Source: Pelagibaculum spongiae (lineage in GTDB: Bacteria; Pseudomonadota; Gammaproteobacteria; Enterobacterales; Pelagibaculaceae). From it: a stretch of DNA of 64,000 nt. The stretch's first letter is position 1, and every line of letters starts with the position of its first letter. The stretch covers positions 62,001-126,000 of the forward strand of contig NZ_QDDL01000012.1 in the NCBI RefSeq assembly GCF_003097315.1, given 5' to 3'. The position numbers were made by a program, and so were the translations under genes. The notes beneath the pieces were generated by a model. That model was given only the letters and a program-made list of their open reading frames with translations. It was not told the DNA's origin and did not search any database. Positions 20,055 to 60,461 of the stretch are shown here, in pieces.

Positions 20055-20287
20055 TTAATATTTTTTAGCTTCCTGATCTGAACGTACATTCTGTGACGCT
20101 CGGTGGTCACTATAGCAATCCATATGAAAACCAACTAAGAGCGCATCTGGCATGCTTGATATCAGCCCCTCTTTTCCTGTGCAGGCAATGGGTATAGGAA
20201 CCACTCGCAAGCCGGGGATATCGTCAACCAAACATACATTCAGATGTGTGCCACCAGCAACACTTAAGTATGTATTTTTTGGATTTC
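20055..20287 (-). pseudogene. Unrecognised gene remnant, open for 77 codons without a start
   Basis: A continuous minus-strand frame bounded by stops, with no start codon at a sensible place. The translation contains CLVDDIPGLRVVPIPIAC and then a GKEGLISSMPDALLVGF stretch, which has protein-like composition. The proline-rich VPIPI pattern is faintly like PAAR-type spike proteins; I would not assign it. It adjoins the resolvase remnant, so this kilobase (19606-20599) is probably decayed mobile DNA. Confidence 0.3.
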
Positions 20288-20308
20288 AAACCCCACCAAC
20301 AGGGGTGA

Positions 20309-20460
<152 letters not shown>

Positions 20461-20656
20461 TTTGGGTTTGCTGTTGCTCCCCCCACGGATTCGAATGTCA
20501 TGCGGTGTTGTTTTTTTGGGGAGGGCCAGTCACCCCATAATCTGATTTGTGGTACTTCTATTTCAAATCAACTCAGCTATTCAAATATGAATAATTTTCT
20601 TGCAACGCGATATTTTGTCAGCTAGTGTTGCGTTATCCCATTTTGAGGTGATTGCG

Positions 20657-36115: not shown

Positions 36116-36119
36116 TTAT

Positions 36120-37457
36120 ATGAAACATTATTGTGTATTTGAATATGGGCATTTAGTCACACAAGAGATTGATGATGCCAGCTGTACGGTCATTCCAGAT
36201 AAGTTATTTTCCTATCTCGAAAAAAACTTACTCGTTGATGCACCTAGCAAAAATGATCAGCCTGCTTTACTGCAACTTTGTTACTTTCGTGGTGTACGTG
36301 CACTGAAAGTGAAGAACTATGTTGGGGTGCTTTGCACCCCACTAGGCGCACAAATTGAAATATTGCCGAAAACCGGTAAGCACTGCAGCTCAGATGACGC
36401 GTTGGACAAGGCAAGAAAGCAATCTCTGACCATGATTAGCTGCTTGAGCGAGATGAAGTTTTTGCGTATGTCCGATGCAAATATTTCTCTAGCCAAGCGA
36501 CCGCTATTTGAAATTTTTATCAGTCAATTTTTGCAAAGTGTTAACCAGGTAGTAAAGCGCGGACTCAGATCAGATTATCAGTCCCAACAAGATAATTTAA
36601 AGTTCCAAAAAGGTCGCTTGCAGACTGCTTTGCAAATCAAGCGCAATCTGTTTACTCCACACAAGTTTCAGGTTGAATATGATGAGTACATACAAGACCG
36701 CCCAGAAAATCGCTTAATTAAAAGTGCTTTGAATAAGGTGATGGGTTTTACCAGGCTTTCTGCGAATCAAAAACTGAGCAGGGAATTAGCCTTTGCCTTG
36801 GCTGATGTGCCTGAAACTCGCTCTGTGCAACAAGATCTAAAAGCCATCAGACTGGATCGAGGGATGAGCTACTACCAAGATGCGCTGCGATGGAGTGAAT
36901 TGGTTCTCAAGGGGTTTTCACCTGTGGCAATGCATGGCGAGACCCATGCAATATCATTGCTATTTCCTATGGAAAAAGTGTTTGAAGCCTATGTTGCCAA
37001 GAAGCTTGGTTCATTAATCGATATTCCCTATCAGCTTCAATTACAGGCACAAAGCAAGTCACTGGTGACGCATGGTGGGCAAAATATGTTCTGGCTTAAA
37101 CCTGATTTGCTGATCAAGTATCATGGGGATGAGGCCATAGTCTTGGACACCAAGTGGAAACTGTTGGATAGCAGCTTGAATAATGCCTCTGACAAGTATG
37201 GTTTGTCACAGGCTGATTTCTATCAAATGTATGCCTATGGACAAAAATTTCTCAAAGGTCAGGGGGAAATTTACTTGATCTACCCAGCTCATGAAAAGTT
37301 TGACCGACCTATTTCTCTCAGTTTTGAGATGGGTGATGCTGATCATAAACTTAGCTTGTGGGTGGTGCCAATCGTGATTAACCCTAGGTTCAAAGCGACT
37401 GACCTGAGGCTGCCTAAAACTTGTATGCTAAAAGATGCGTTCAATTTAGAGCATTGA
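36120..37457 (+). CDS. mcrC: McrC nuclease subunit
   Basis: 445 residues from the ATG at 36120, 4 nt after the McrB stop; a longer frame back to 36027 would overlap McrB and is not favoured. N-terminal beta domain with LKVKNYVGVLCTPLGAQIEI; middle helical region VKRGLRSDYQ and YDEYIQDRPENRLIKSAL, typical of McrC. The PD-(D/E)XK nuclease core is near residues 330-350: FWLKPDLLIKY then AIVLDTKWK. A final QMYAYGQKF motif closes the fold. With McrB it cuts DNA bearing modified cytosine or similar bases, here probably restricting phages with modified genomes. Followed by an ankyrin/Sel1 gene after 68 nt. Confidence 0.95.
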   Translation: MKHYCVFEYGHLVTQEIDDASCTVIPDKLFSYLEKNLLVDAPSKNDQPALLQLCYFRGVRALKVKNYVGVLCTPLGAQIEILPKTGKHCSSDDALDKARKQSLTMISCLSEMKFLRMSDANISLAKRPLFEIFISQFLQSVNQVVKRGLRSDYQSQQDNLKFQKGRLQTALQIKRNLFTPHKFQVEYDEYIQDRPENRLIKSALNKVMGFTRLSANQKLSRELAFALADVPETRSVQQDLKAIRLDRGMSYYQDALRWSELVLKGFSPVAMHGETHAISLLFPMEKVFEAYVAKKLGSLIDIPYQLQLQAQSKSLVTHGGQNMFWLKPDLLIKYHGDEAIVLDTKWKLLDSSLNNASDKYGLSQADFYQMYAYGQKFLKGQGEIYLIYPAHEKFDRPISLSFEMGDADHKLSLWVVPIVINPRFKATDLRLPKTCMLKDAFNLEH

Positions 37458-37525: not shown

Positions 37526-39130
37526 ATGGATACGGTTGATTGCCAGGAAAATAACCTCTCCCAACTGGTTATAAACGAAGATATCGAAGGCATAGTTAAT
37601 ATGCCTGATCAACTGACAAATGAAGCGCTGATCTATGCTTGCCAGAACAACAAGATAGCCGTAGTTAAAGCACTCATTGACAAGTCGACATTTGATGTCG
37701 AGTACCAACAGAATCTTGCTCTAAAAATTGCCCTTGAAAATGAAAATGCACCCTTGCTGGCTTTATTGCTTTCAGAGGGCGCTGATATTAATGATCGTGA
37801 TGGCTTGCTTCTTCAGCTTCTTGAAGAAAAGAAAAAATCTTCTGCTGATCTGGAAGAAATTTTCAATTTTGGATTAAGAAATTGTTATTTCATTAATTGG
37901 GAAGATGCAGCAGTCGCGTCTATTAAGAATCGCAATCCCCGTCTGACGGAGATCATACTAGCAGCGACTCCAGATAACATTTGGCTAGAAGTATTGGTAC
38001 AAGCTTTAGAAAGTGACAACCAGGAGCTTGCCCAACACGCTATAGCTGCAGGTGTTGATTTTAAAGGCGATAATGACAATGGATGTTATGCTTTATATGA
38101 TGCATGGCATAACAACTGCCGCTCTCTATGCCCCGAGTTGATCAAGCATTGCAATATCTCAATCGTTGATATTATGCCGGATGTACTTGATGGTTACACG
38201 CTCGATTTAAACTTTCCAGATCAAGGTTTTATCGCAGCGTTATATCAGCTGTCCGGGAATGACATCAGGGTCTTCCAGGCTATTGTTGATGAGCTGTTAA
38301 TTGATGAAAAATCTGACTCGCTACGAAATTATATTGAATTACTGAAAACCGATAAAAAATATTTAAATAAGATTTTTACTTATGCAATTGATAAAAAACT
38401 CGATGATTGGTATCCAAAATTAATGGCACTGGAGGCTGATTTCGAGCTGGATTATGAACTGGATATGGATGAAATTCATCCGTTAACATATGCCTTGAAA
38501 GGCTGTGATAACCGAGAACTGATCTGTTACCTGCTGGATAAGCCTGGAAATACGTATTGTCTTCAACCAGGGGCATTGATTGACTCAGCCATTGATGCTG
38601 AAGATTGGCCTTGGGTAAAACAGCTGGCAAGTTATGGTGTAAACCCGTCAAAGCAAGGGCAAAAGCAGTTATCCAACAAGCTTTTGCAAGACGACTTTCC
38701 CTTCAAATCTTTGATTATCGATATTTACCAGATTTTGGCTGATAACCATGACTCGTGGGCTGCAATATCACTGGCGAGTGAATACTGTCATGGCAACCTT
38801 ATTGACCAAGATGCCAACAAAGCCATTCAATATTACCGCCAGGCTGCAGAAGCGAGCGATAGCGATGCCTTCAGCAAGCTGGCTGCAGCACTTGTACCGC
38901 GAGGTGATTATGACAGCCTCAAAGAAGCCTGCCATTGGTATACGCAAGATGCTCTAAATGGTCATTCAGATGCAATAGAAGCTTTGATCAGCCTTCTTGG
39001 TGATAAGAACTCTCTTGTGTATGACATCCATGTCGCTGAATTTTGGAAAAGAAAACTGGATGAAATACCTGAATCATCTCTTCCCGACCACCCTGTCATC
39101 TTTGACTGGCCCGAAGATGGAATGGTTTAA
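37526..39130 (+). CDS. Ankyrin-repeat and Sel1-like-repeat protein
   Basis: 534 residues. The N-terminal two-thirds contains ankyrin-type units such as NEALIYACQNNKIAVVKALI and LALKIALENENAPLLALLLS, followed by GADINDRDG. The last about 120 residues hold Sel1-like repeats (ISLASEYCHGNLIDQDANKA and FSKLAAALVPRGDY). No signal peptide. Both repeat types mediate protein contacts. It is co-oriented with McrBC with a 68-nt gap and is followed by a terminator, so it closes the putative LRV-McrB-McrC-Ank operon. Possible specificity, inhibitor-binding or control subunit; not part of classical McrBC. Confidence 0.82.
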   Translation: MDTVDCQENNLSQLVINEDIEGIVNMPDQLTNEALIYACQNNKIAVVKALIDKSTFDVEYQQNLALKIALENENAPLLALLLSEGADINDRDGLLLQLLEEKKKSSADLEEIFNFGLRNCYFINWEDAAVASIKNRNPRLTEIILAATPDNIWLEVLVQALESDNQELAQHAIAAGVDFKGDNDNGCYALYDAWHNNCRSLCPELIKHCNISIVDIMPDVLDGYTLDLNFPDQGFIAALYQLSGNDIRVFQAIVDELLIDEKSDSLRNYIELLKTDKKYLNKIFTYAIDKKLDDWYPKLMALEADFELDYELDMDEIHPLTYALKGCDNRELICYLLDKPGNTYCLQPGALIDSAIDAEDWPWVKQLASYGVNPSKQGQKQLSNKLLQDDFPFKSLIIDIYQILADNHDSWAAISLASEYCHGNLIDQDANKAIQYYRQAAEASDSDAFSKLAAALVPRGDYDSLKEACHWYTQDALNGHSDAIEALISLLGDKNSLVYDIHVAEFWKRKLDEIPESSLPDHPVIFDWPEDGMV

Positions 39131-39165
39131 CCAACAGACTGATCCGCTGGATATAAAATAGCGAT

Positions 39166-39210
39166 AGGTGCTTCAGTACTTGAAGCGCCTTAGTAAAAGT
39201 GTTTTTTTTT
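39166..39210 (+). terminator. Rho-independent-like terminator after the McrBC/ankyrin operon
   Basis: AGGTGCTTCA (39166-39175) pairs with TGAAGCGCCT (39181-39190) with one G-U pair and a GTACT loop; a run of nine T follows at 39202-39210. The 11-nt spacer before the T-run is longer than ideal. Confidence 0.6.
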
Positions 39211-39441
39211 GCATCTGCAAATTTCAAAAATGCAAATGCAAAAATAGATTTTACAATTTAGCGCTAAACACCACTTAATATAATTTTTACTGAATTAAAA
39301 ATAATTCAGTATTTTAATCGCTTTTTTAAATTAAATTTAAAATTTTTAGGGACGCATAAAAATACCTTTGCTTAGGTCGGTATTGGCTAATTACTGTTCA
39401 AATATAAACGCTGCATTCGCCTTTAAAATCGATATAATGCA

Positions 39442-40030
39442 GCCGCTGCCAGCTCATCTATGAACCTTGCAATTCAGCCTGCGGGGTATGGCAGCTTTAT
39501 TTTTTCATGTGAACTTGCTTAGTAGTTAAGCAAGTTTTCTCAACAAAAATAGTATTTGTGGCTTGACCCATTAATGCTGAATAGCATGACTTACTTGATT
39601 AGAGTGTTTCATTTCAAACAAAATGAAACACTTCATGAAAGGGAATCAACTACTGATTAGCATGCTTTCAATCATATCTATCGGATTGATTGTATTTAAT
39701 ATTTACTTCTATTCAGAACTGTCTAGCCTGCAAGCAGCTCATGAATCGTCAAGCAAAACACACCTGTCTCATCACGATATTATCCAAGCGGTAGATGATC
39801 GCCTTGCTTCTTTGAAAAAACGTAATGCTAAAGCTGTACTGTCCCGCTTGGAAGAGCAGTTTCAGCTAGCGAATGAAACCACCCCAGATAATCGCCTGAT
39901 TTACGGAAATCCAAATGCAAAAATAACCTTGCAGGAATATGGCGATATTGAATGTCCATACTGCAGAAAAATGCATGGTGTCATCAAGCAAGTGGTCCAT
40001 CATTCCCAAGGCGTCATCAACTGGGAGTTC
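39442..40030 (+). repeat. Intact copy of a direct repeat also present at 27208-27606
   Basis: The repeated unit includes the leader hairpin (GCTGCCA 39445-39451 with TGGCAGC 39489-39495, followed by a T-rich run) and the first half of the DsbA-like gene. The other copy, 12 kb to the left in the same orientation, has an internal deletion. The TGTTTCATTT-caaac-AAAATGAAACA inverted repeat around 39607-39631 overlaps the start of the gene and has a palindromic counterpart (CATTTCATATGAAATG) in the left copy. Confidence 0.85.
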
Positions 40031-40423
40031 AAACATTTTCCTTTAGGGATTCATAACCCTGTAGCCGCAGTTGAAGGCCAGGCCATTGAATGCATTAAAG
40101 CATCCTATAACAATCGCATAGCCTGGATCGCATTAGACAAGTTCATGATGGACACTAGAGGAAATGGCCAAGGAATTAACGATGTACCAGAGTATGTCAG
40201 ATCATTTGGCCTCAATGGTTCTTTGATTGGTAACTGCCTTGCCTCAGATGATCATCAAGACAAGATCAACCAGGATTATCAAGACGGACAACGTCTTGGC
40301 ATTTCAGCGACACCGGCAGTCCGCATTATCGACAATACAAATGCCAAAACGTACTTATTGGGAGGGTACAAAACATCGGAACAATTATTACAAGCAATTC
40401 AGCGAATAACTTGGGGAGGGTAA
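39623..40423 (+). CDS. DsbA-like membrane-anchored thiol oxidoreductase
   Basis: 266 residues. A single N-terminal hydrophobic helix (about 8-30: QLLISMLSIISIGLIVFNIY) anchors the protein in the inner membrane, followed by a coiled segment and a thioredoxin-4/DsbA-type domain. The active site is C-P-Y-C at Cys111-Cys114 (YGDIECPYCRKMH), with the cis-Pro loop in GISATPAVRI. Such enzymes form disulfides in periplasmic proteins; versions with a membrane anchor are common on conjugative elements where they help pilus proteins fold. An alternative ATG at 39635 exists; the ribosome binding site is weak for both and overlaps an inverted repeat that could be an operator. A dead copy lies at 27.2 kb. 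Confidence 0.9.
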   Translation: MKHFMKGNQLLISMLSIISIGLIVFNIYFYSELSSLQAAHESSSKTHLSHHDIIQAVDDRLASLKKRNAKAVLSRLEEQFQLANETTPDNRLIYGNPNAKITLQEYGDIECPYCRKMHGVIKQVVHHSQGVINWEFKHFPLGIHNPVAAVEGQAIECIKASYNNRIAWIALDKFMMDTRGNGQGINDVPEYVRSFGLNGSLIGNCLASDDHQDKINQDYQDGQRLGISATPAVRIIDNTNAKTYLLGGYKTSEQLLQAIQRITWGG

Positions 40424-40709
40424 ATCGTTGATTTTTTGATGAATTGAGGAAATCAAGCGTAGGGATATTACCAGCACTCCACAGACATGCAAAAACGATA
40501 ACCGAACTGGGAAGAAAAAAACTTTGTTCAGGATTAACCTAACAGTATCAGAGAAATAATTGGCAACAGTCAGATCAAACCTGAATTACTACAAGCCAAC
40601 CACTGAAACCTAGATTTTTTATATTTCAGGTCATTGGCTACGGAAGCTTGTTACCTTCATGCAGTGGGTTATACTGCAGAAAAGTCAGTTAATAAATTAA
40701 ACTGCCAAG

Positions 40710-41306
40710 TTAATAAAGTGGCCTCGCTTCATCAGAGTTTGAGCTGTACAAACGAACATTAATAGTGCGTGCACTTTCTTCCTGATAATTGATTTGTTCT
40801 GCTCTAGAAAAAAATTGAGAGCTTTCACCTGAAAGGCCTGTACCACCGGCCTGCTGGTAGCAACCCTCTTGAGCTTTTGGCTGGCAGTAATATGGTGGTG
40901 CTTTCTGGGCCAGACATATGCTGCTGGCCTGCTGTCGACCGAGTAATGCTGGGGTTTTTGTTGACTGGGGCGTGTCTTTTATTTTTTCAGGGAGATAAGT
41001 AACTGATATTAAACCCAAACTTTCATTTAAAAAAAGCTGGGCCTTCTCGCTATGTTCGCCACCTAATTCGTAATAAGTAAGTAAACCAGTATCAGCAGAA
41101 GGCCTATCAATAATAATATGTTGTTTAGGCTCGACCCTCCAAATACCAATTAATTTCCCATCAATTTTTACTTTTGCATCACATTTCTTATCCGAAAAAT
41201 TGATCATTAAAAGCTTATATTGAGTGTTGTCTTTCATCAGGATATAACCGTCTTTTTGAAGTTTTCCACCTAAAATATCTAGAGAATAATCTCCTAGCTT
41301 CATCAT
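40710..41306 (-). CDS. Unknown protein, last gene of the polymerase cluster
   Basis: 198 residues with AAGGAG 5 nt before the ATG at 41306. The first 105 residues are beta-rich (YKLLMINFSDKKCDAKVKID, IGIWRVEPKQHIIIDRP), a jelly-roll-like style seen in some virus or phage surface proteins. The second half is Gln/Ser/Cys-rich and probably disordered. No signal peptide. It follows the polymerase-side genes on the minus strand. Whether it is a structural or accessory protein is open. Confidence 0.65.
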   Translation of the reverse strand: MMKLGDYSLDILGGKLQKDGYILMKDNTQYKLLMINFSDKKCDAKVKIDGKLIGIWRVEPKQHIIIDRPSADTGLLTYYELGGEHSEKAQLFLNESLGLISVTYLPEKIKDTPQSTKTPALLGRQQASSICLAQKAPPYYCQPKAQEGCYQQAGGTGLSGESSQFFSRAEQINYQEESARTINVRLYSSNSDEARPLY

Positions 41307-41488
41307 ATAACTCCTTAAAAAGGATTGGAATAATAGATATAGACTTAAAATATTTTCTGAAAGATTAATTGTCTTTGTAAATTACAGATCAGGTATATTT
41401 TAATAGTTACTACCACTGTTTTGCGAATGCTTAGAAATAATTTTAAGTAAATGAAAATTAATCACCTTATCGACTCAAAATCAACATT

Positions 41489-42508
41489 CTATGTGTTAGT
41501 TATCGCTTTGAAAATATTTGTTCTGAATCGCTCTTGCAAGAAAAAGTTTGTATCGGACTCTAGCTGTTTTCTAACGGAATCTTCGTAAATTTTGGAAACA
41601 ACTTCCATCATTTTTGAAGCATGATCTGTTAGCTCGAATGACTTGAATGATATGCCATCAAAAAAAGACTGTTTTGAAGAAAAATCTTTTAACAAGAAGT
41701 CATTGATCTCTTCCCAGTCCAAATGCGAAAAGAAAAAAATAGGTAGAGTATGTCTAGCTTTCCAGTGTTTTATATATCTTTTATCACCTATTAAGGTTTT
41801 ATTCTCTTCATTTTTAGACATTTCTTCTTTGTAAATATTTTTATAATTCTTGATTGTTACACCAATCTGAAAAACATTGATATGAGTCAGGCGATATTTC
41901 CAGATAGAAAGGCGTATCGCGGACAGAAATTCTCTCATAATTTTGGGAGAGATATGCTTATGAGCACCTTTTCCATCAGCCAGATCAACAGTCTGATGAA
42001 TGTACTTCTGGATTTCTGAAACCTGACCGTATACACCGTCATAGCAAGAAAGTGAAAGCACCTCTCTTACATTTTCTTCAATATCTTTATGCTGATAAGC
42101 ACCTGATTTAGTTAGCCTATCAATCGCCATTCCGACTATCGGGAAAGGTGAGTTTGAATACTTGACGACTTGAACATAGGAGCGTGGCAAACGTTCTGAT
42201 TCAGAGTAGTTAATGCACATTGAGTCAAAGTCATGCATAAGCAGTCCTTTAACCATCTGTTCTTTTAATACATCAAAATCTGATACTCCTGAAATCTTCT
42301 TGCTAAGATACTTCCTGAGTGCCAAGCCTTTCTCTTCCAACCTATCATCTCTATATTGTTGGAAATAATGGTCGCTTTTATAGTCATAGCCTTCTTGGGA
42401 GATCTCTCCTTCATCGCAGCCCCACCCATCTCCACCATAAAATAGATAAGGAACACCTGCCTCGATTTCATCTTCAGTAAATTGATCGAGATCGTAGCTA
42501 CAGCTCAT
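41489..42508 (-). CDS. Unknown 339-residue protein next to the family B polymerase
   Basis: Acidic start (DLDQFTEDEIEAG), then a largely helical protein with many aromatic residues (WKYRLTHINVFQIGV, LPIFFFSHLDWEEINDFL). No transmembrane helix that I would trust, no catalytic motif recognised. It lies between the polymerase gene and the 198-residue gene on the same strand, with gaps of about 140-180 nt. A terminal-protein-like or replication accessory role is conceivable only by position. Confidence 0.6.
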   Translation of the reverse strand: MSCSYDLDQFTEDEIEAGVPYLFYGGDGWGCDEGEISQEGYDYKSDHYFQQYRDDRLEEKGLALRKYLSKKISGVSDFDVLKEQMVKGLLMHDFDSMCINYSESERLPRSYVQVVKYSNSPFPIVGMAIDRLTKSGAYQHKDIEENVREVLSLSCYDGVYGQVSEIQKYIHQTVDLADGKGAHKHISPKIMREFLSAIRLSIWKYRLTHINVFQIGVTIKNYKNIYKEEMSKNEENKTLIGDKRYIKHWKARHTLPIFFFSHLDWEEINDFLLKDFSSKQSFFDGISFKSFELTDHASKMMEVVSKIYEDSVRKQLESDTNFFLQERFRTNIFKAITNT

Positions 42509-42647
42509 AAACAGAAAACCTGAATAAAAAAGGTTGAAAGGAATGGGTTAGGGGGTGCAGCCATACACGGTAGAAGTAAATGACTGCACCATCAACAGAG
42601 CAATAGCTTATGATTACCCGACGAAGGAGGCAGAGTTGCTTGCAACA

Positions 42648-44474
42648 CTAACTGGTGGCCAACCGTTTGAAATAATGTAATTTAATAAATTGACTATTAA
42701 ATATTTCATTTGCTACGGTTCTACCTGCCACAATCGGGTCAATGACCTCTTCGCAAGAGTACCTTTCAAAAATATAACTGTCAATAAAGGTAAGGAAGCG
42801 TAATTTTTTCTTATACGAAAATGAATTTTTTAAATGTATATATTTTTCTGAAATATATCGGTAATCATCAATTTTATTTATTTTTAGTGATTTTCTAACA
42901 TCATTGTAAGGATTGTTACTCCAGCCATTATTAAAAATAATATTCTTAAATTTAAGAACTTCTGAGTTTTTCTTTAACCAATACCTCCCGATATCAAGCC
43001 ATAATCCTTGGTCAGATATGCACTCAACTTTGAGGTTTCCCGCCTCGTTACTCAACATGGGAGCTATAGAACTAAAGAACGCATCCATACGTTCTTTTTC
43101 TACAGAAAGATGAATTGAGTCGGTATTGCAGTAGCAAACTCGAACCGTTGGAAAACTTGCCATCTGCTCAAGTGTTTTAAACATTTTCAACCTGGCGCGG
43201 GCTATGACTTCTGCATGCAAGCTGAATATGTTGATGTTGTCTGAGAGTACAGGACACTCTAACTGCCACTCCTGTTTGAGCTTTCGAACTCTAAAGCCAG
43301 GGATAGAGTCAATATGCTTGATAGATTTAACACAACTCCAATCTGATTGAGACTGGACATAATATTTGCTTGTAACATAATCAATCAGGTCGCTAGGCGT
43401 ACTAAATATGAGACGCCTAGTGCTTTTGCTCTTTGTAGCGCTGTGCATTGCAGCCAACTGAATCTTACACCAGCTGCTAGATACATCGTCTCCGTGGGAC
43501 TGATATAACGTCCTTTTTTGATATATTTTTTTTGACTCAGCGAGCAACGGATGTTGAATCAACTTGGTAGATACAACGCCCCAAAATATATGCGTACTTT
43601 CAAAGTATTTTGAGTAATAAACGATTTCATCAGATAATAAAAGAATTCTGATACGGTTTTCTTTATCTAGCTTAAAAGGGAAGCTTTCACCTCTTACCTG
43701 ATATTTGAAAGGATGATAACGAGCAAAGAAATTACTTTTTACCTTCCGAAACTCAACATAGAACATACCTCTAGGAAGGTCATCTATTGAAACCCGTGAC
43801 GTATCATACTGGCGAAACTCAAGAAAACCCGGATGCATCATAGGCTCATCCATGCAACTCATGTACATCGAGTTGAAATCCAGTGAGATCACGCTTCTTC
43901 CTGGGTCCTTTTCTTCAATACAAAAAACTTCCTGATACGGGGCGCAAGGTAAAAAGAAAAACAAATCATCCAAGCTATTCTTGAGTCTTATTTTCTTGGA
44001 AATTTTGAAATGATTTTTTGTAGAGAGATATCGGTGCAATCCAAAATGAACACCTTCTCTCTGAAAAAAAGCAATATTTTTCTTTAGTGTCGATAAGTTT
44101 CGATACAGGTTTTTGGAGTACTTTACTTTGAATACGCCAGGATATTTGCTTTCAAAAACCTCTATGCTTTTCTTGTAAGTTATTGAAAGCTGTAAAAGAA
44201 AGCACTTTTCTTTATTGGTAAGAACCATGAATCTTTTCTTGCTTTCAGTTTGGAAGAAGCTAACAGCATCAATCAAGCACCCTTCTGTGAGGATTTTTTC
44301 CCCATCAGTTGCTATTGGGATGTATGGCTTTTGTTTGATTTTTTTTGGGCTTATGCCAATAACTCTTCTCAAACTAGTTTTTTGATAAGGCATAGGTATG
44401 GTTTGCGGATCATACTTACCAATAACAATAAGCTGCTCTTTTTCTGTAGATTTTTTACCTAGAGGGCTGTTCAT
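42648..44474 (-). CDS. Divergent family B DNA polymerase
   Basis: 608 residues from the ATG at 44474 (a TTG at 44483 is possible). Polymerase motif A VISLDFNSMYMSCM lies near residue 200, and motif C VRVCYCNTDSIHLSV near residue 450; between them AEVIARARLKMF matches the helix that precedes motif C in protein-primed polymerases. Motif B (K-x3-N-S-x-Y-G) is not conserved: the best match reads KIQLAAMHSATKSKS. In motif C the usual DTDS is NTDS, keeping the main metal-binding Asp. I see no exonuclease motifs in the N-terminal 190 residues. Closest in style to small protein-primed or mobile-element PolB. Activity is uncertain. Surrounded by unknown genes on the same strand. Confidence 0.8.
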   Translation of the reverse strand: MNSPLGKKSTEKEQLIVIGKYDPQTIPMPYQKTSLRRVIGISPKKIKQKPYIPIATDGEKILTEGCLIDAVSFFQTESKKRFMVLTNKEKCFLLQLSITYKKSIEVFESKYPGVFKVKYSKNLYRNLSTLKKNIAFFQREGVHFGLHRYLSTKNHFKISKKIRLKNSLDDLFFFLPCAPYQEVFCIEEKDPGRSVISLDFNSMYMSCMDEPMMHPGFLEFRQYDTSRVSIDDLPRGMFYVEFRKVKSNFFARYHPFKYQVRGESFPFKLDKENRIRILLLSDEIVYYSKYFESTHIFWGVVSTKLIQHPLLAESKKIYQKRTLYQSHGDDVSSSWCKIQLAAMHSATKSKSTRRLIFSTPSDLIDYVTSKYYVQSQSDWSCVKSIKHIDSIPGFRVRKLKQEWQLECPVLSDNINIFSLHAEVIARARLKMFKTLEQMASFPTVRVCYCNTDSIHLSVEKERMDAFFSSIAPMLSNEAGNLKVECISDQGLWLDIGRYWLKKNSEVLKFKNIIFNNGWSNNPYNDVRKSLKINKIDDYRYISEKYIHLKNSFSYKKKLRFLTFIDSYIFERYSCEEVIDPIVAGRTVANEIFNSQFIKLHYFKRLATS

Positions 44475-44590
44475 GCTTACCAAGTATTTCCATTTCTTTA
44501 TGGAAGACTAAATGAAATACATCATTTATAACATGAGCAATATCACTCCATGATCATAATCAGGAGCCGATGACTAATCGATAATAAGGT

Positions 44591-45652
44591 TCATGGTTTT
44601 CTCGCACAACCCTCTTCAAGCTTTTTCTTAATTAAATCAAACGGCAAATCTTGTGACTGAATCAAAGACACTACCTCATCAATTGCTTGATCACGGTTTG
44701 CGATAATCGCAGTTTGAACGTCTTGTGCCAACTGCTCCAATTGCAGCTTATTGAGTTGCCTAAGTGCATTTATGCGTGCAGCTCCGTTCTGGTTTAGCCA
44801 TTCTGATGCTGAATCATCGCAAAGCACCGCATCGCTTACTTCAGCTTTGAAGTGATTGCTGGGGCTGCCAATAACGTTCGGCCCTGTCGCATCAGTAGAC
44901 TCCGAAATTGGCAGTATTACAGGCTGAGGCCTAGCACTTGAGGGGGACACTGTTTTTTTAACGATGCCTGCTAGAGGTTTGAGTTCTGAAAGCACATTTG
45001 GGTTATTCATAGCATGATTCACTGCGTGTTGTTTTGTGGTTTTATTATTAAAAAGCGGTCTATCTGCCTCATTAACTTGCAACTTCTCTGCATAATCAGC
45101 AGTTGTCGGCAACATAAAATTAAGGTGCTGCAGTAATTTGTTTTTTATATGATTAATTTGTTTGCCCGTAAGGTAAATTTTACTGCTACCAGCATTGGCT
45201 TTGATTGTTTCATCAGCAACCTGTAATCGAAGCTTTTTTAATTCTGATAAATACGATTTTGTTTTGATCGACTCAGATTCTTCTAGTTGAATCTGATCGA
45301 TTTTTCGCCTGATCAGCTTAATACAAGAAAGCGTAATTTGATCCACTTGCGCCGCTTTACACTCGCCCGCTTGTTCTACCGGATTAGCAGAGCTGCAGTC
45401 GGTATCATTTGAAGTAAGGGTATTTATCTCACGTATAATTCGTTTTACGTCGGCAATGAAATTATCAGCTGATTTGTTATCCGATGGTGTTGAACTGGTA
45501 AAGCAGGGTTTGTCTGCACCTTGAATCAATACTTTAAGATGGTTGTTATTGGTTCGTTCATGCCTGAAAGGAGTATCAGCACCCAAAGTTTGTTGTAAGC
45601 GCTTGATAATTTGCTTTTGGTAGCGGCTATATCCACGAACTTTGCTCACCAT
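44591..45652 (-). CDS. Unknown protein with HicA-like N-terminus in the polymerase cluster
   Basis: 353 residues from the ATG at 45652 with AAGGAA 4 nt upstream; an in-frame ATG at 45682 adds 10 residues. Residues about 15-80 (NNHLKVLIQ ... FTSSTPSDNKSADNFIADV) match a small beta-alpha-beta pattern ending in 'STPSD...NF' found in short phage proteins of HicA-like shape. The middle is charged and helical. The C-terminal RINALRQLNKLQLEQLAQDV then VSLIQSQDLPFDLIKKKL faintly resembles the oligomerisation helices of H-NS-type proteins. No firm family. Start of a minus-strand run with the polymerase gene (116-nt gap). Confidence 0.6.
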   Translation of the reverse strand: MVSKVRGYSRYQKQIIKRLQQTLGADTPFRHERTNNNHLKVLIQGADKPCFTSSTPSDNKSADNFIADVKRIIREINTLTSNDTDCSSANPVEQAGECKAAQVDQITLSCIKLIRRKIDQIQLEESESIKTKSYLSELKKLRLQVADETIKANAGSSKIYLTGKQINHIKNKLLQHLNFMLPTTADYAEKLQVNEADRPLFNNKTTKQHAVNHAMNNPNVLSELKPLAGIVKKTVSPSSARPQPVILPISESTDATGPNVIGSPSNHFKAEVSDAVLCDDSASEWLNQNGAARINALRQLNKLQLEQLAQDVQTAIIANRDQAIDEVVSLIQSQDLPFDLIKKKLEEGCARKP

Positions 45653-45856
45653 TCCTTTCCTTGTTTTTGATATGGTCAGCATAAAATGGGGGACAAGAAA
45701 GATAATTCAATGTCACGAATATATAGTGGATAGCTGGATATCCATTAATTATTTGTTTTTATTGATTGAAAATCTGTAAATTTTAAGACTGAACGTATCA
45801 TTAGACCACGACACAGAGCACTGAGTCGTCACCCAGTGCTCATCGAATCTTGACTG

Positions 45857-47656
45857 TTAAGCTAGCTCATAGCAAACACGGAACCCTATCTTGCAGTAAT
45901 GGTATTTACCCGTACTCCATGCTGGAAAAAGATCACTTTCAATATTGGCCGCACCTCTTGCAGACAACAGCGATCTTGATCGAATCGCAACTGCTTCCAT
46001 TCCATAGGGGTTCTCATTCAGCCATTCACAGAATCTGTCTGAATCAACAAATTTTAAACCTGACGTATGCCCAAGAAATTTTGGTTCTTCAGTGTATTTA
46101 CAAGTTAAAGCCTGAAAATCAGACTCATCCATATGAGGAGGTCTAGCACCATATTTATTACTCTTATTATCACAATATTCTAATAAGCTGGAATCCTCGG
46201 TACCGCCACTCACAGAGCATTCTTCTCTAATCGCTCGATACTCGTCCAGCTTGAGTAGACGTAATGGCAAACCATGTTTTTTTTCAAGAAAGGAAAGATA
46301 CATACAAGCGTCAAACCAGGTAACGGCAGCAGGCAACTCTGCTTTGTCAGCGTTCATTGTATCCAAACGATCCGGCTTACCTTTTTTTATTGCCTCTCTA
46401 TGCTCAAAATACTCTGAGTTTTGGTTTGAAAATTTAATAATTTCATCAATGGTGATTAATTGAGAAACATTGAGTTGTTTACCTGCAGCATCAACACGAC
46501 AAAAGTCCATAGGTCGGGCAAAATTGTCAGAAGCCTTAACTGTTTTATACGCATACAAATCGATATCAGAAAAATAAGTTTTCCACACTTCCCACTCACC
46601 AGGATAGTTACGAATTTCACCACCATTCTGATAATAGTGTTGCTCAGCCTTATGTTCATCAAGGGCATGGCAGCCTGCATACTCGAAGTAATACCAGCGC
46701 TGAAAATCATAAAGAGCATTCATTTGACGAGGGATATCAGATGGTTTTAAGAACGGCGCATAAATTTGATGATTAAAATTCTTTTTTTTCATTCCTTTAA
46801 TGACAAAATCATAGCAACCATCACTCCCTTTAAGAAAAATTAATTTCTCATTATACGGAACAACCTCAACCCAGCCTTTATCCTGGCTTTCAATTTCTCG
46901 TCTGAAAATCGCACAGGAAAGCTCCTCACCTTCAGCTAATAAAGCTTTTTCTTTTTGCGTTGAACTGGTTGTGAAATACCTGCCACTTGCCGTGATGCCT
47001 TGTGATATAGGGCTTACCAAGAGGTCGCCCCGTAAATTAAAACATGGTTCAATGCAATGGAACATATGCCCACCTAGGACAAGATGGGCATAAGAAATAT
47101 TGTTATCGTCTCTTCCAAACTTAGGGAATTTCGATATATCAATTATCTTATTAGGGCTCTCAATCGCTAATTTGAGGTGTTCTATATTAGGCTTATACGA
47201 AAATCCCATGGGGTCTGGTTGAGCTTGTACCCATTGATTAAAGCACCACTCACCATCATCATAACGACGGGCATAGTCAAAATTGTACCCAGTAAATATT
47301 TTTGAAGGTGCTGTTTCATTTGAAAAAAATAGTCTGTCAGACAATTTTTCAACATCGAGTGCCAAGGATGCATTTGCATCTGGCCGATACTGGGGTGTCA
47401 CAAGATCATCCCACTGATGCAGCCCATGCTTCTTCATAAAAGGCTCTAACTTTTCTTGATAGTCATCCCCATACCCAGAAAAACCACCAGTAAAACCGAG
47501 AGATGAAGCAATCAGGTTGAGAAGAGTGACATGACCAATCTTTTCTCTATCACGAAACAGTTTTTTTGTTGCTTTTTTTATGTCGTCAGGATGCAATCCC
47601 AGAACAGGGACAACATGGAACTTCTTGGTAGCTATAAAGCGATTTGGTACAGACAT
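45857..47656 (-). CDS. FGE-sulfatase/C-type-lectin-fold protein
   Basis: 599 residues, GGAAAG 5 nt before the ATG. The C-terminal about 160 residues show the formylglycine-generating-enzyme-like fold: AAVTWFDACMYLSFLEKKHG, LRLLKLDEYRAIREE, and the closing KIGFRVCYELA (the 'GFR' end of this family). The N-terminal 80 residues (GHVTLLNLIASSLGFTGGFS) resemble the short N-terminal module of some phage/plasmid 'glyoxalase-related' proteins. The middle is unassigned. No secretion signal. Proteins with this fold serve as enzyme, receptor-binder, or target of diversity-generating retroelements; no reverse transcriptase is visible in the window, so the last option has no support here. Confidence 0.75.
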   Translation of the reverse strand: MSVPNRFIATKKFHVVPVLGLHPDDIKKATKKLFRDREKIGHVTLLNLIASSLGFTGGFSGYGDDYQEKLEPFMKKHGLHQWDDLVTPQYRPDANASLALDVEKLSDRLFFSNETAPSKIFTGYNFDYARRYDDGEWCFNQWVQAQPDPMGFSYKPNIEHLKLAIESPNKIIDISKFPKFGRDDNNISYAHLVLGGHMFHCIEPCFNLRGDLLVSPISQGITASGRYFTTSSTQKEKALLAEGEELSCAIFRREIESQDKGWVEVVPYNEKLIFLKGSDGCYDFVIKGMKKKNFNHQIYAPFLKPSDIPRQMNALYDFQRWYYFEYAGCHALDEHKAEQHYYQNGGEIRNYPGEWEVWKTYFSDIDLYAYKTVKASDNFARPMDFCRVDAAGKQLNVSQLITIDEIIKFSNQNSEYFEHREAIKKGKPDRLDTMNADKAELPAAVTWFDACMYLSFLEKKHGLPLRLLKLDEYRAIREECSVSGGTEDSSLLEYCDNKSNKYGARPPHMDESDFQALTCKYTEEPKFLGHTSGLKFVDSDRFCEWLNENPYGMEAVAIRSRSLLSARGAANIESDLFPAWSTGKYHYCKIGFRVCYELA

Positions 47657-48098
47657 TTGTCTTTCCTAAATACATGACTCCCAGAAGTTCTCTGGTGTAT
47701 CTTAAAGCCGTTATGGGCAAGGAAAAACAGAATAAGCGTGATTGGAGATATATAGGACGTTACGCTTTGCGGGCTTTCTTTGGTAAAGATACTAACACCA
47801 ACCGGAGGCTACCCAGTGCCTGACAATAATTCTACACATCGAAAACTCTTTAAGTCAACAACTAAGTATCCTAAAGCCCATTTGTTTGATTTTCACGAAT
47901 AAAGAAAACATAAATTTTATAGCTGTTCCCTATATTGCGCTAAACAGTCCTGAGATGGCAAAAACCCATGGGGTAGCGTGATCCTTTTGCCTTCCTTATC
48001 AAGGAAGCACCCCTAGAAATAAATTTTTAATAAATTGAAAACTATAATCTTTTAGGCCTTAGCATATGATTTGATCCCACAGGGTTTCAAGTGCTTAA
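47657..48098. other. 442-bp spacer without supported genes
   Basis: It should contain the promoter for the FGE-type gene at its left end (minus strand). A 49-codon plus-strand frame (47674-47823) has no ribosome binding site. Nothing else is seen. Confidence 0.4.
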
Positions 48099-48647
48099 TT
48101 AGCCGCCAAAATAACCCTTTCGCTCCATTTTCAAAGTGCGCCAGACTGGAAGCAGCTTTTGAATCAGTGCGTCACGATCTCTGATTGCTCGGATTTTAAT
48201 TTCGGCCTGATCATTATCATTGGTTTCAATCACGAGAGTCGACAATCCAACAAGGCCTAAAAGTCCTGCCGGTGGACTACTGATATCTTTTATGCCACTA
48301 ATTTCACAAAATAATTCACGACGAAAAATCCTGGTTATTCCTTTGGCTTCTTTGATTTTATTTTTGGTAATTACAATGCGTTCGTAGCGAACAAAAAGAT
48401 ACGCATGCAAGACACTGATGATTGAAAAGAAAATCAGCACATAGCAAGCCCATGAAATAGCATCTCTTATCATTGGTCCATAACCGACACTTAAATGATC
48501 AGTCCACATGGCCAAAAACATAATGGCACCAACCAAACAGCCACCCCACCAACGAAACGTTCCGAGGTTAACCCACTGGGATGGCCCACCTTGCCAAATA
48601 ATCGTTTCATCGTCGTAAGCAACCTGGTAGTACTGCTCACTATCCAT
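48099..48647 (-). CDS. Bacterial PH-domain membrane protein
   Basis: 182 residues. ETIIWQGGPSQWVNLGTFRW near the start, two transmembrane helices (about residues 33-48 and 65-85), then a PH-like beta domain starting YERIVITKNKIKEAKGI and ending in a C-terminal helix (RDRDALIQKLLPVW), the layout of bPH_2 (YdbS-like) proteins. AGGA precedes the ATG. These proteins sit in the inner membrane with unknown ligands. It stands alone on the minus strand. Confidence 0.8.
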   Translation of the reverse strand: MDSEQYYQVAYDDETIIWQGGPSQWVNLGTFRWWGGCLVGAIMFLAMWTDHLSVGYGPMIRDAISWACYVLIFFSIISVLHAYLFVRYERIVITKNKIKEAKGITRIFRRELFCEISGIKDISSPPAGLLGLVGLSTLVIETNDNDQAEIKIRAIRDRDALIQKLLPVWRTLKMERKGYFGG

Positions 48648-48804
48648 CTCATCCTGAGGGGGTGCTGTTTGGTTGTCGCATTCCTATGTACCATGAACCC
48701 CATAAGATTCTTAGTGGTGCTATGCCGCTCAACTCAGCCACATAACGAGCATGGCCGAACTTAAAACTGTCATAATATGCAAACAATGATGTAAAAGAAT
48801 GGCT

Positions 48805-48832
48805 AAAGGATCTTGCAAGTGTGATCCTTTTT
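48805..48832 (+). terminator. Orphan rho-independent terminator in a gene-free region
   Basis: AAAGGATC (48805-48812) pairs with GATCCTTT (48823-48830), followed by TT, giving a short stem with a 10-nt loop and a five-T run counting the stem. No plus-strand gene precedes it; a small RNA or the end of a decayed gene is possible. Confidence 0.55.
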
Positions 48833-49850
48833 AGTTGGTGATAACACTTAGAGCAGGCAGCTTCAGTGAAAACGGTGGGTTAGCTTTGATTCCGGTAATT
48901 TCCAAAAGCTGTGGCTGTGATGGTATGCATAATCCTGGCTATAGTGAACGCATCTTCTAACCAAAATATGAACTTTTATGTCTGAGCACAAAAATCGGTA
49001 TTTGTTTTCAGGAATCAACTCTAATGCTTTGAATTTTCTCTAACCACCACGTTTTCTTTGTCTAAACAGAAGGTTATTATGCCGAGCAGAAAGTGATCTA
49101 TGCGGTATTTAAAAGATATTTTTCCCTTCAAAAATGGTAACGAAATTTTTAGGGTTACCTGAATAAATTGAAGGATTCATATCATGTGGCCGACAGGTCA
49201 TCATTAAATTCTGAATGATACCCAAGTGTCCCCACCCAACTCTGTTCAATACTTTTATCAGTAGCTTAAAGACACTCCCTTTAAGCAGAATAAATATATG
49301 ATCAGGTACTTAAAGACAGCAACTTTCCCAAGTAACTCTCATTCATGTTTCAGATATATTTTCACGAAAAATGGCCAACCACCGCTTTAATCTGTTGATA
49401 TATTTATAAATAAAAATATTAACTCACTATTTACTGTACAGCAGAGCAGATGTGGTGTTAACGCCATAAAAATAACTAATATTGGATAAGCTTGAAATTT
49501 TGGGTGATCGGTGTTTTTTTCAACTTAATTCATCAAGAAATGTTGAGATGATTTTAAGGTGACTAATCGGCACGTAAATAGTTTGACGAAAATAGAATGC
49601 TTGCGGCATCTTAGTACTGCTAACCTTCTGTTGTAATGTTGAAAACTGTAGGGCTTGAAGACCAGTCGCAGCAGCAGTTTGGCCTTTTCTAATCGACTCT
49701 TAAATATCAATAAAAAAATTACAGCATCGAGCTAAAGCAAGCTGAGCTGCTCAGATAACCGGGTAATATCAGGTAAAACGACGACTAAATGGATAAGACG
49801 CAGGATGCTAATACCGAGTGACAACAGAGGCGTCTTATTAATGGGGTTGA
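48833..49850. other. About 1 kb without a supported gene
   Basis: Both strands are broken by stops; short frames lack ribosome binding sites. The right part (49740-49850) has a protein-like minus-strand stretch but with interrupted frames, perhaps decayed mobile DNA. Confidence 0.4.
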
Positions 49851-49879
49851 TTGACCTTGCTGTTTTTCGACCAGATATA
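49851..49879 (+). promoter_or_regulatory. Putative sigma-70 promoter for the protease-cyclase pair
   Basis: TTGACC (49851-49856) and GATATA (49874-49879) are separated by 17 bp, 55 bp before the protease start codon, which has GGAG at 49923-49926. Confidence 0.55.
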
Positions 49880-49934
49880 CGGGCCAAGGAAGCAGGGTTT
49901 TCCTCCTACCTAATATAATGTTGGAGAATGAAAC

Positions 49935-50987
49935 ATGAAGAGATTACCTGCGTTACTCACAGCAGTCCTAGCCCTCGGCTGTTCTTTTGGAGCTTGGGCA
50001 GCGACTCCTCAGGAAGTGGCCAAGCAAGCCTCCTCGTCGACCGTGTTGATTGTGACTGAAGATGCGAACGGTCAACCCCTTGCTCTCGGTAGCGGATTTG
50101 TGGTCTCTACAAACAAACTCATCACAAACTACCACGTGATCGAGGGTGCATCCTCAGGTTACGTCCGTATAGCAGGCAATAAGAAGAAGCTGGAAATCGC
50201 CGGTATTCTTGCGTTCGACAGATCTCGAGACCTAGCATTGCTCTCTGTTAAAGATCTCGTAGCATCACCCCTTTCAGTGTCCGCAGTAACCCCACAGGTT
50301 GGCGATACAATCTATAGTCTGGGCAACCCCCAAGGACTAGAAGCAACTTTCTCTGCTGGTATCATCAGCAGCATCCGAAAGCTTGACAACGATAGTCTGC
50401 TCCAGATCACTGCACCCATCTCTCCCGGTAGCAGCGGAGGTCCAGTCTTGAATGTGGACGCAGAAGTCGTAGGGGTCGCTGTGGCGACCCTTCGAGGAGG
50501 TCAGAATCTCAACTTCGCGATCCCTGCGAAGTACTTTAAGTCTCTCCTTGATCGCGAGCAGCCAATATTGCCGTTAGGCAAGCTGAAGGAAGACAAGAAG
50601 GCGAAGTCAATATTCGATTCACTCCAATCAGGCAACGCGATTGATGGCGTTGTTGGTGAGGCCGTGAGATGGAAAGGCGACATCAGTGGTTCGTTGGCCT
50701 CATATGGTGACTTTACATTTGGCCTTCGGAACAAGCTACGAGAGCCAGTTCGGAATATCATCTTCATGGTCATATTCAACGACCATGATGGCAAACCGGT
50801 CGAGTATTTCGCGTCAGTTTATTCCGGAATTCTCCCTGCTCGCCTCGCACGGCGGGTGTCAGGAACGGTTGACCCGAGTATCAAACCCATGACAACCCGG
50901 ATATCTCGAAACAACCAATTCATGTACGAGCTGACACCAAGCTCTCAAGTTGAGGTGAGGATTCTACACTTTGAAATCGTCGAGTAG
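49935..50987 (+). CDS. Exported trypsin-like (DegP/S1C) serine protease
   Basis: 350 residues. A Sec signal peptide covers residues 1-22 (LTAVLALGCSFGAWA, cleavage after AWA). The catalytic triad is intact: His67 in NYHVIEG, Asp99 in RSRDLALL, Ser167 in GSSGGPV. After about residue 215 there is no PDZ domain; instead a beta-rich C-terminal domain of about 110 residues (FGLRNKLREPVRNIIFMVIF ... EVRILHFEIVE). Base composition is more GC-rich than the neighbours, and codon use differs, suggesting recent transfer. It lies 17 nt before the cyclase-like gene, so the two are probably co-expressed. The substrate is unknown; the enzyme would act in the periplasm. Confidence 0.92.
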   Translation: MKRLPALLTAVLALGCSFGAWAATPQEVAKQASSSTVLIVTEDANGQPLALGSGFVVSTNKLITNYHVIEGASSGYVRIAGNKKKLEIAGILAFDRSRDLALLSVKDLVASPLSVSAVTPQVGDTIYSLGNPQGLEATFSAGIISSIRKLDNDSLLQITAPISPGSSGGPVLNVDAEVVGVAVATLRGGQNLNFAIPAKYFKSLLDREQPILPLGKLKEDKKAKSIFDSLQSGNAIDGVVGEAVRWKGDISGSLASYGDFTFGLRNKLREPVRNIIFMVIFNDHDGKPVEYFASVYSGILPARLARRVSGTVDPSIKPMTTRISRNNQFMYELTPSSQVEVRILHFEIVE

Positions 50988-51766: not shown

Positions 51767-51816
51767 AACCGATATCAGCTAAAAGCTTTTCTAATGGTTT
51801 TTTTAGGTTGTCATAA

Positions 51817-51840
51817 AAAAGGCCTCCGAAGAGGCCTTTT
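51817..51840. terminator. Bidirectional rho-independent terminator
   Basis: AAAAGGCCTC (51817-51826) and GAGGCCTTTT (51831-51840) form a perfect stem with a CGAA tetraloop, with T-runs on both strands. It ends the plus-strand protease-cyclase unit and the minus-strand set of small genes starting at 53123. Confidence 0.92.
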
Positions 51841-51843
51841 GTC

Positions 51844-52002
51844 TTAATCGTCAAATCTTTTAATGCCAGATTGACTTGCTCTTAACTCAATATCCTTCCA
51901 AGCATGGCGTTCATGCAAATGCGCACGAGCCGCTAACCCGGTGAACACAAAGAGCAGCAAAATTGCTAGCACCATTAAAAGATTCATGACTGTAATCCAC
52001 AT
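51844..52002 (-). CDS. Small single-helix membrane protein (52 residues)
   Basis: ATG at 52002 preceded by GGAGG 8 nt upstream, a strong signal. The product has one hydrophobic helix (VMNLLMVLAILLLFVFTG) followed by a basic/amphipathic tail (ARAHLHERHAWKDIELRASQ). It ends 4 nt before the bidirectional terminator. Last gene of a small minus-strand group. Function unknown; too short for most gene finders. Confidence 0.7.
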   Translation of the reverse strand: MWITVMNLLMVLAILLLFVFTGLAARAHLHERHAWKDIELRASQSGIKRFDD

Positions 52003-52045
52003 AACTTAATTCCTCCTAAATAGATAATCCCGTTGAAGTTTTTTG

Positions 52046-52378
52046 TCAAGACTTCTTTCCGGCTCTACTCATTCGGATCGCAAGTAGATCAACAATCAGT
52101 TCTTTGAGTGCCGTAGCACTGGATTCCCAAGCGTCTAGGATTAAATGTCCACTGACACAATAGAGTGCCAATACTGCAGAGATATATTCAACCCAGGCTA
52201 AAGCTTGCCCAGAAATAAGCGGTTTAATAATGTGCCCGACAAAAATTCCTGATAAGCCAACCAGACCTAACTTTAATGACTTAAAAAGAAAAATACTTCG
52301 GGTGTAGTCCATTTTGAAAACCAAAAGGTCAGACGTACTCAGCCTGCTGATTTCCTTATACATGGTACGATTATCCAT
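52046..52378 (-). CDS. Small membrane protein (110 residues)
   Basis: Hydrophobic segments at about residues 33-52 (SLKLGLVGLSGIFVGHII) and 60-80 (AWVEYISAVLALYCVSGHLI) suggest two membrane helices, with a basic C-terminus. AAGGAAGG lies upstream of the ATG. It is in line with the neighbouring small minus-strand genes. Family not recognised. Confidence 0.65.
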   Translation of the reverse strand: MDNRTMYKEISRLSTSDLLVFKMDYTRSIFLFKSLKLGLVGLSGIFVGHIIKPLISGQALAWVEYISAVLALYCVSGHLILDAWESSATALKELIVDLLAIRMSRAGKKS

Positions 52379-52492
52379 AATTAACCTTCCTTTCGTTGAA
52401 CGAACCCAACGTCCGGATAGGTGCGCCCCAGGAGGGCAACACCCTCCGGGACTAAAATCATCGTATTTTGGTGAATTAAATCACCTGTGGTT

Positions 52493-52874: not shown

Positions 52875-53123
52875 TCAAGAGCCACATCCGGCTGGGCAAC
52901 ACCCCAACTCAATGCCATGGCAACAACAGTCGTTTTCCAGCAACCATACCTGCTGTCTTGCCCTTTGATCTTTCGGGGCATAATCCCAATCGCATGCAAT
53001 TGAGATCGCTTTTTGCTGGTCTTTTTTTGAGAATGTAACAAGCGCGGCGTCAACAGCACGACTGAAGCGCTCAACGAAAAATTCATAGGATAAACCACAG
53101 CCACGATGCGCTGACCTCAGCAT
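52875..53123 (-). CDS. Cys-rich small protein cut or capped by an IS66 fragment
   Basis: 82 residues from the ATG at 53123. The C-terminus ENDCCCHGIELGCCPAGCGS holds seven Cys plus His, a pattern seen in small plasmid/phage proteins and suited to metal binding. The start codon falls inside sequence belonging to the IS66 transposase fragment (which begins by about 53116), so the original N-terminus may have been replaced by the insertion. Head of the small minus-strand group 51844-53123. Confidence 0.5.
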   Translation of the reverse strand: MLRSAHRGCGLSYEFFVERFSRAVDAALVTFSKKDQQKAISIACDWDYAPKDQRARQQVWLLENDCCCHGIELGCCPAGCGS

Positions 53124-60427: not shown

Positions 60428-60461
60428 TTAACTGGTACTGCCTTTATTTTAAAATTTTTGT

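Follow-up and report, generated by a model that had tools for sequence, protein, structure and literature searches.

To our knowledge, the anti-phage systems that act by DNA synthesis have so far been built on reverse transcriptases, and the classical motif B of protein-primed family B DNA polymerases (PolB) has the form KxxxNSxYG. For DRT9, DRT10 and DRT1, the published accounts drawn on here (PMC12632851, PMC13275509) describe a polymerase that makes protein-attached DNA, with or without an RNA partner, and that is needed for defence or its control. For piPolB, the polymerase of pipolins, a passage of PMC7544198 has the first Asp of motif C missing. The subject of this report is a 64,000-nucleotide stretch of Pelagibaculum spongiae DNA (contig NZ_QDDL01000012.1, positions 62,001 to 126,000; hereafter the window) and, within it, a module of two adjoining genes, one for a polymerase and one for a partner protein of 339 residues (Table 1). 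The polymerase is one of a rare group, as yet unnamed, of family B polymerases that resemble that of phi29 (protein-primed type), and on balance the window probably holds one copy of a module, directed against phages or mobile elements, that has spread horizontally and is formed around such a polymerase. The module, its conservation and its genomic company are matters of direct observation.

What kind of polymerase is it? The window protein (611 residues from a TTG start, 608 from the ATG at residue 4) was not recognised by Pfam, PHROGs or NCBIfam, and phmmer against PDB sequences returned 0 matches up to an expect value (E) of 10; a profile of 15 family members gave one chance match to PDB sequences, with E 1.5. 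Pfam PF03175 (DNA_pol_B_2) is matched by 3 of those 15, with E 8.5e-5 at best and the window protein not among them, and pairwise hhalign placed motif A on that of phi29 (E 6e-4, probability 28%) and motif C on that of PRD1 (E 0.0085, probability 5%), in both cases weakly. It is the predicted fold that is decisive for phi29-like identity. The AlphaFold2 model, built with 13 sequences, has a mean predicted local distance difference test (pLDDT) value of 76.4 and a predicted template modelling score (pTM) of 0.73, residues 1-33 being unreliable; its best Foldseek match is phi29 DNA polymerase (2ex3_A, E 2.7e-11), and VIA-align superposes it on phi29 polymerase 2pyj_B over 405 residues, spanning phi29 residues 4-575, with Z 24.0 and a root-mean-square deviation of 4.5, the best non-phi29 chain reaching Z 12.7. 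The preliminary description of this DNA had called the gene a family B polymerase, and the modelled fold bears that out.

It had also pointed to a clear motif A (LDFNSMYMSCM) and to a motif C with NTDS (CYCNTDSIH), both of which are present, and had considered the polymerase degenerate-looking, which comparison with the intact family members contradicts. Throughout the 15, D202, N204, M206, Y207, C210 and M211 of motif A are invariant, the family form being D[FYV]Nx MYxxCM, and motif C reads YxN[T/I/V]DS with N453 and D455 invariant; the two-Asp motif C of protein-primed PolB, YxDTDS, is found in none. As the Asn is invariant in all intact members and both catalytic Asp are kept, together with K340, the altered motif C is a family trait and not decay. 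The claim that there is no recognisable motif B stands to the extent that the classical form is absent, but the motif is reshaped (KxxxxxxH/C S...) around K340, its sole invariant residue, rather than simply missing. A GRYWL block near the C-terminus is likewise invariant in all 15. Judged from the conserved residues, the polymerase is real and intact and has not decayed. Exonuclease residues are partly kept, with D60 in 14 members and D172 in 15, equivalences that are by position only; an active exonuclease was considered and is not claimed, the second acidic ExoI residue (the Glu equivalent) being missing in most members.

The family comprises 19 distinct loci, the window included, in Proteobacteria, on two plasmids and in three tailed-phage contigs, and 15 of them have an intact polymerase; this count is a lower bound because the pattern scans were strict. 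Those scans found 13 polymerase loci in the GTDB genome collection and five in IMG/VR, three of the latter (L017-L019; loci are designated by L numbers) being near-identical, and of the 72,556 plasmid records searched by tblastn two hold relatives, those of Sinorhizobium sp. B11 and Sphingobium yanoikuyae. The same five contigs came up again when the scan was repeated with larger alignments or with one confined to clade 1. A tblastn search of 50,697 phage records with two queries gave no match, nor did a scan of viral contigs with a single protein. Among 99, 369 and 398 genomes sampled from the order, class and phylum, the polymerase is in the source genome only, and it is in 3 of 296 Sphingomonadales genomes. 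A tree of the 15 polymerases has two clades, one of 5 rows with the window among them and one of 10 rows, each supported at 100/100. The Sinorhizobium and Sphingobium plasmid copies belong to the larger. Inside an otherwise alphaproteobacterial clade are members from betaproteobacterial and gammaproteobacterial (Moraxellaceae) metagenome-assembled genomes, which indicates horizontal spread. No description of the module was found in the full-text literature (subscription papers and preprint servers lay outside the search), Pfam, NCBIfam, PHROGs or PADLOC 2.0.0, and neither the window polymerase nor its partner matched any family of PADLOC-DB 2.0.0 up to E 1.

How many of the neighbouring genes accompany the polymerase? 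Five minus-strand open reading frames had been described at this place, and all five are where they were said to be (Table 1). In an all-against-all comparison of the open reading frames of the window and the other loci, with flanks of up to 10-12 kb, the polymerase and the 339-residue gene alone recur, and the 198-, 363- and 599-residue window genes have no relatives in the flanks of the other loci, so that a five-gene unit is not confirmed, and the refuting condition set in the preliminary description, no co-occurrence elsewhere, holds for three of the genes and not for two. (Single linkage also drew into the partner group one unrelated open reading frame of L007, by reading a transposase, which was ignored.) The 339-residue gene is homologous to a gene of ~300 residues next to other polymerases, with E 3.8e-12 for that of L017 and 9e-11 for that of L005, and a partner homologue adjoins the polymerase at 16 of the 19 loci, the window counted. 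The three loci without one are L004, whose contig ends 63 bases upstream, L015, where there is a fused N-terminal extension, and L016, a fragment. The partner is directly upstream of the polymerase and on the same strand in 14 of the 16, with a 4-base overlap between the two genes in at least six (L003, L007, L008, L010, L011 and L020); in the remaining two it is downstream, on the same strand for the window and on the other strand for L005. The modelled partner homologue of L020 is all-helical (pLDDT 84.5). One Tyr is invariant among the partners, Y160 of the window protein. The best match of the partner profile to PDB sequences was a ribosomal protein at E 0.16, and the partner alignment is too variable for pattern scanning. 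The ~430-residue extension of L015 (8510-11783, Succinivibrionaceae), which shares one open reading frame with the polymerase in a gene broken by a run of Ns, was tried as a fused partner and rejected, hhalign giving nothing better than shuffled background. At L010 (6773-8812) the partner gene is split, its N- and C-terminal parts being in two open reading frames ~1 kb apart, which suggests an insertion. The sole other family common near the polymerase is that of a UvrD-like helicase, of which three loci have a gene within 15 kb (window 27766-30336, L005:4638-7499, L011:13151-15997); it matches the PADLOC GajB and RTasHel (DRT-associated) models, which could be general UvrD similarity.

In the larger clade a structured RNA accompanies the pair, its gene being an element of ~83 nucleotides just 3′ of the polymerase gene in 12 of the 12 loci with a readable 3′ end. 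When 400 nucleotides on each side of the pair were compared, DNA similarity of 80-90% was found over 55-80 nucleotides right after the polymerase stop codon; that this reflects mere relatedness of the loci was rejected, as the 400 nucleotides upstream of the partner have no comparable similarity save between the related loci L012 and L014. The alignment has 85 columns, with 75% mean column identity and a near-constant core of GUGUUCNNNGAACACU and GCAGGAACGG...GGGCAGAUCCUGC. There are two nearly identical copies 174 bases apart at L009 (3786-4042) and three at L003 (13639-14076), one degenerate, overlapping the polymerase stop; the third L003 copy, left out of model building, was recovered by the model at E 1.3e-17. 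The spacing of the tandem copies at these two loci is about 170-186 bases. Upstream of the RNA an extra hairpin is present in L007 (11653-11690) and L009 (3741-3770), with the common loop GCTGCCTCGAGA.

When the first hairpin is paired by hand, its covariation is strong and convincing: all four of its inner pairs are kept in 12 of 13 distinct copies, and pairs 2 to 4 are each seen as G-C, C-G and A-U; 50 of 52 cells are paired, against a shuffled mean of 31, and when the 3′ arms were shuffled 100,000 times the observed pattern was matched in 0 cases. The second hairpin has a GNRA tetraloop in 7 of the 13, and such loops being an RNA feature, this suggests RNA more than DNA. The association with the polymerase is close: a search of 14 whole genomes gave nine strong matches to the RNA model, in eight genomes, every one of them at the polymerase gene, and the best match elsewhere has E 0.04; among the 296 Sphingomonadales the three genomes with the RNA are the same three that have the polymerase, the other 293 having neither. 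Both searches capped the number of first-look candidates that were scored in a genome. Because the three loci helped to build the model, the informative part of the Sphingomonadales comparison is the 293. Rfam searches of five loci and of window positions 39000-50000 gave none.

Several of the loci are close to known defence genes. SspF, SspG and SspH are 0.65 kb upstream at L003; HsdM, HsdS and HsdR, a type I restriction-modification set, end next to the partner at L011; BrxA, BrxB and BrxC are ~2.8 kb away at L013; PsyrT and PsyrA follow the polymerase at L015, PsyrT starting 23 bases past it; and PD-Lambda-5_A is 1.4 kb away at L014. The flank proteins of L004, L006, L010 and L012, scanned singly against PADLOC, gave no named system, those of the remaining loci being scanned as a pool. 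A control of 13 stretches from the same genomes and plasmids, with 112 proteins, gave 12 PADLOC families at E 1e-15, helicases and mads-type ones, and no such multi-gene set. The corresponding family counts, 159 for the flanks and 12 for the control, were set aside in favour of the named systems, since PADLOC holds many overlapping models per gene and the counts overstate the contrast. A Cas12f-like match beside L008, which we take to be probably a transposon TnpB, was not counted. In the phage contigs the pair comes after lambda J-like tail genes (L017), after tail genes (L020), or next to an integrase, past which are portal and head genes (L021); as these contigs carry tailed-phage head or tail genes, the pair looks like phage cargo.

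With an active-looking polymerase, a dedicated helical partner, an RNA in one clade and mobile, defence-rich surroundings, the module fits polymerase-based immunity, and of the three readings offered in the preliminary description (an element's remnant, a new element type, a polymerase taken over for another job, e.g., defence) it is the last that has most in its favour. How might such a system work? Beyond the defence role we infer DNA synthesis on infection, protein priming and a part for the RNA. On infection the polymerase would be freed from control by the partner and, in the larger clade, also by the RNA, and would then make DNA from a primer that may be a protein hydroxyl on the partner or on the polymerase itself, or from none. 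The RNA of the larger clade could serve as template, scaffold or off-switch, and the phage might be stopped by the DNA product or by an accompanying depletion or tying-up. The working would be analogous to that of the DRT/Abi reverse transcriptases, with an unrelated polymerase. In its fully specified version the proposal is of bacterial immunity through DNA made on infection by a family B polymerase, the structured RNA being template or cofactor and the helical partner the protein primer; this version is tentative and rather doubtful.

A number of observations weigh against polymerase-based defence or parts of it. The polymerase family is rare; among 15 non-phage loci whose flanks were examined, 5 have a named defence system within the stretch covered, to which the window is to be added, and several loci have ordinary neighbours. 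The partner has no match in PDB or BFVD, and hhalign detected no similarity between it and terminal proteins (E 0.38 for phi29-like ones, 0.61 for PRD1). As to the RNA, RNAalifold on a MAFFT alignment gives three helices with double changes in 2 of 18 pairs, a low covariation because the helices hardly vary and MAFFT misaligns the first hairpin, and the folding advantage of six single copies over shuffled sequences is slight to moderate (z -0.84 to -2.54). In the smaller clade the RNA model finds nothing in the window, L004, L005 or L006; the phage contig L019 has a weak match, on the other strand and upstream of the partner (E 0.009 in 370 kb, 1e-4 in 4.5 kb), and because none was otherwise found in that clade the RNA cannot be claimed for the window.

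Might the pair instead be the replication module of a small element that has integrated and is either intact or a remnant, with the polymerase protein-primed, the partner its terminal protein and the 3′ element an origin or attachment site? The phi29-type fold accords with this, as does the order of partner then polymerase with overlap, which is like the arrangement of terminal protein and polymerase in phi29 and PRD1, and so do the integrase genes adjacent at L003, L007 and L021 and the tandem repetition of the 3′ element, twofold at L009 and threefold at L003. It is nevertheless unlikely. No similarity of the partner to the phi29 or PRD1 terminal proteins was detected, there is no third gene common to the loci, the pair sits inside other replicons including plasmids and tailed-phage contigs, and the GNRA tetraloop in 7 of the 13 distinct copies of the 3′ element is an RNA feature. 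Terminal inverted repeats had been named as something to look for around the window cluster, and the repeat search of 39000-50000 found none flanking it; with an intact polymerase whose catalytic residues are conserved, the notion of a remnant is not supported. The observation that the cluster has no capsid, packaging or integrase gene is sustained, none having been identified by Pfam or PHROGs.

Improbable too is an accessory host or phage function apart from defence, for example a polymerase for lesion bypass, repair or recombination, or a phage gene by which host replication is manipulated. Accessory polymerases are common on plasmids and phages, and two of the flanking proteins are products of Y-family polymerase (IMS) genes, which is in keeping with it; taken alone, such a function leaves the dedicated helical partner and the dedicated RNA unexplained, and equally the position beside SspFGH, type I restriction-modification, BrxABC and PsyrTA. 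Least probable is a catalytically dead polymerase acting as a nucleic-acid-binding scaffold or sensor. Such a reading draws on the Asn that every member has in place of the first motif C Asp, and on the reshaped motif B; it is countered by the invariance of D202 and D455.

Table 1. Features of the window: the module, its motifs and the genes around it (positions are those of the window)
Feature	Position	Strand	Basis
McrB-like AAA protein	34604-36115	+	PADLOC REase_II E 4.6e-16
198-residue gene, outside module	40710-41306	-	Open reading frame list; no relative in flanks of other loci
Partner protein, 339 residues; family predicted all-helical	41489-42508	-	Homologues beside polymerase at 15 of 18 other loci
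Polymerase-partner spacer; possible structured RNA, not established	42509-42647	-	Folding z -3.16; RNA model R1 no match
PolB-like polymerase, predicted phi29/protein-primed type fold	42648-44483	-	AlphaFold2 model, Foldseek, VIA-align, family alignment
Motif C CYCNTDSIH, N453 and catalytic D455	43110-43136	-	Invariant 15/15; hhalign onto PRD1 YCDTDS, weak
K340, motif-B-like lysine	43464-43466	-	Invariant 15/15; motif B equivalence inferred from position
Motif A LDFNSMYMSCM, catalytic D202	43851-43883	-	Family alignment; hhalign onto phi29 motif A, weak
363-residue gene with HicA-like stretch, outside conserved module	44591-45682	-	PDLC02910 E 4.3e-4; phrog_2089 E 3.5e-9
599-residue gene, outside module	45857-47656	-	No Pfam, NCBIfam or PADLOC match
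Druantia type III: DruE 54098-60427, DruH 60462-63776	54098-63776	-	PADLOC E 0 both

The window's own surroundings include Druantia type III and an McrB-like gene, the gene next after the latter (36027-37457) being McrC-like by reading only and having no PADLOC match. Farther off are candidates recognised by PADLOC: at 1840-9457 an MkoB-like protein, an MkoA-like helicase and a mad6/PD-T4-6-like kinase (after which come, by reading, proteins of PP2C-like and vWA-like type), and at 18205-22963 a PDC-S26-like protein and a Leo-like dynamin-type GTPase, which are further defence candidates. Transposase-like open reading frames, by reading and possibly insertion-sequence pieces, are on either side of the region (17035-17959 and 53122-53841). 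Of the genes beside the module, the 363-residue protein gave no match when searched in phages and the 599-residue protein none in plasmids; the C-terminus of the latter, IGFRVCYELA, on reading recalls formylglycine-generating enzyme or C-type-lectin-like domains. Folding of the spacer between polymerase and partner was rejected as evidence for an RNA, 3 of 21 other window spacers reaching z -3.7 or lower. The spacers 39131-39622, 45683-45856 and 51767-52492 stand out for their folding on one strand (z -3.8 to -4.0) and are candidate terminators or unknown RNAs.

What would follow if the defence reading were right? Polymerase-based immunity would have arisen more than once, with the DRT principle independently invented, and a phi29-type enzyme would have unusual priming and possibly unusual template use; were the RNA its template, it would be a naturally RNA-copying family B polymerase. 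With three small parts, clear catalytic residues and carriers that are cultured and non-pathogenic (e.g., Sphingobium, Sinorhizobium), the defence claim is directly testable. The fold is a known one; the combination of parts is without precedent in the libraries and papers searched.

With the phi29-type protein-primed polymerases of PF03175 the present family shares the predicted fold over nearly its whole length, motif A and a second gene adjoining that for the polymerase. It differs in having Asn for the first motif C Asp, a reshaped motif B, exonuclease residues that are partly kept, a partner in which no similarity to terminal proteins was detected and, where inverted repeats were sought (window 39000-50000), no element termini. 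Membership of the protein-primed replicases is not established: neither a motif C with two Asp nor a classical motif B is present, no terminal repeats were found at the window, and no terminal-protein similarity was detected. Casposons and Polintons, too, are integrated DNA with a PolB from the protein-primed assemblage; the difference is that no Cas1, capsid, packaging gene or terminal repeats were recognised in the window cluster. The likeness to piPolB, drawn by motif description, is in the missing first motif C Asp and the location on bacterial mobile DNA; here the protein has ~600 residues, a dedicated partner and an RNA, and no pipolin gene set was recognised, none having been specifically sought. 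With the DRT/Abi reverse transcriptases (DRT9, DRT10, AbiA/AbiK/Abi-P2) there is in common a polymerase-based, accessory system in a defence-island location, and some of these have a dedicated structured RNA and protein-primed DNA synthesis. Here such an RNA is present at the 12 of 12 larger-clade loci with a 3′ end, with a weak candidate in L019 and none found in the window, L004, L005 or L006. No reverse transcriptase domain was found, the predicted fold being that of family B, for which reason the module is not a DRT. A likeness in working, be it to the protein-primed replicases or to DRT, is possible.

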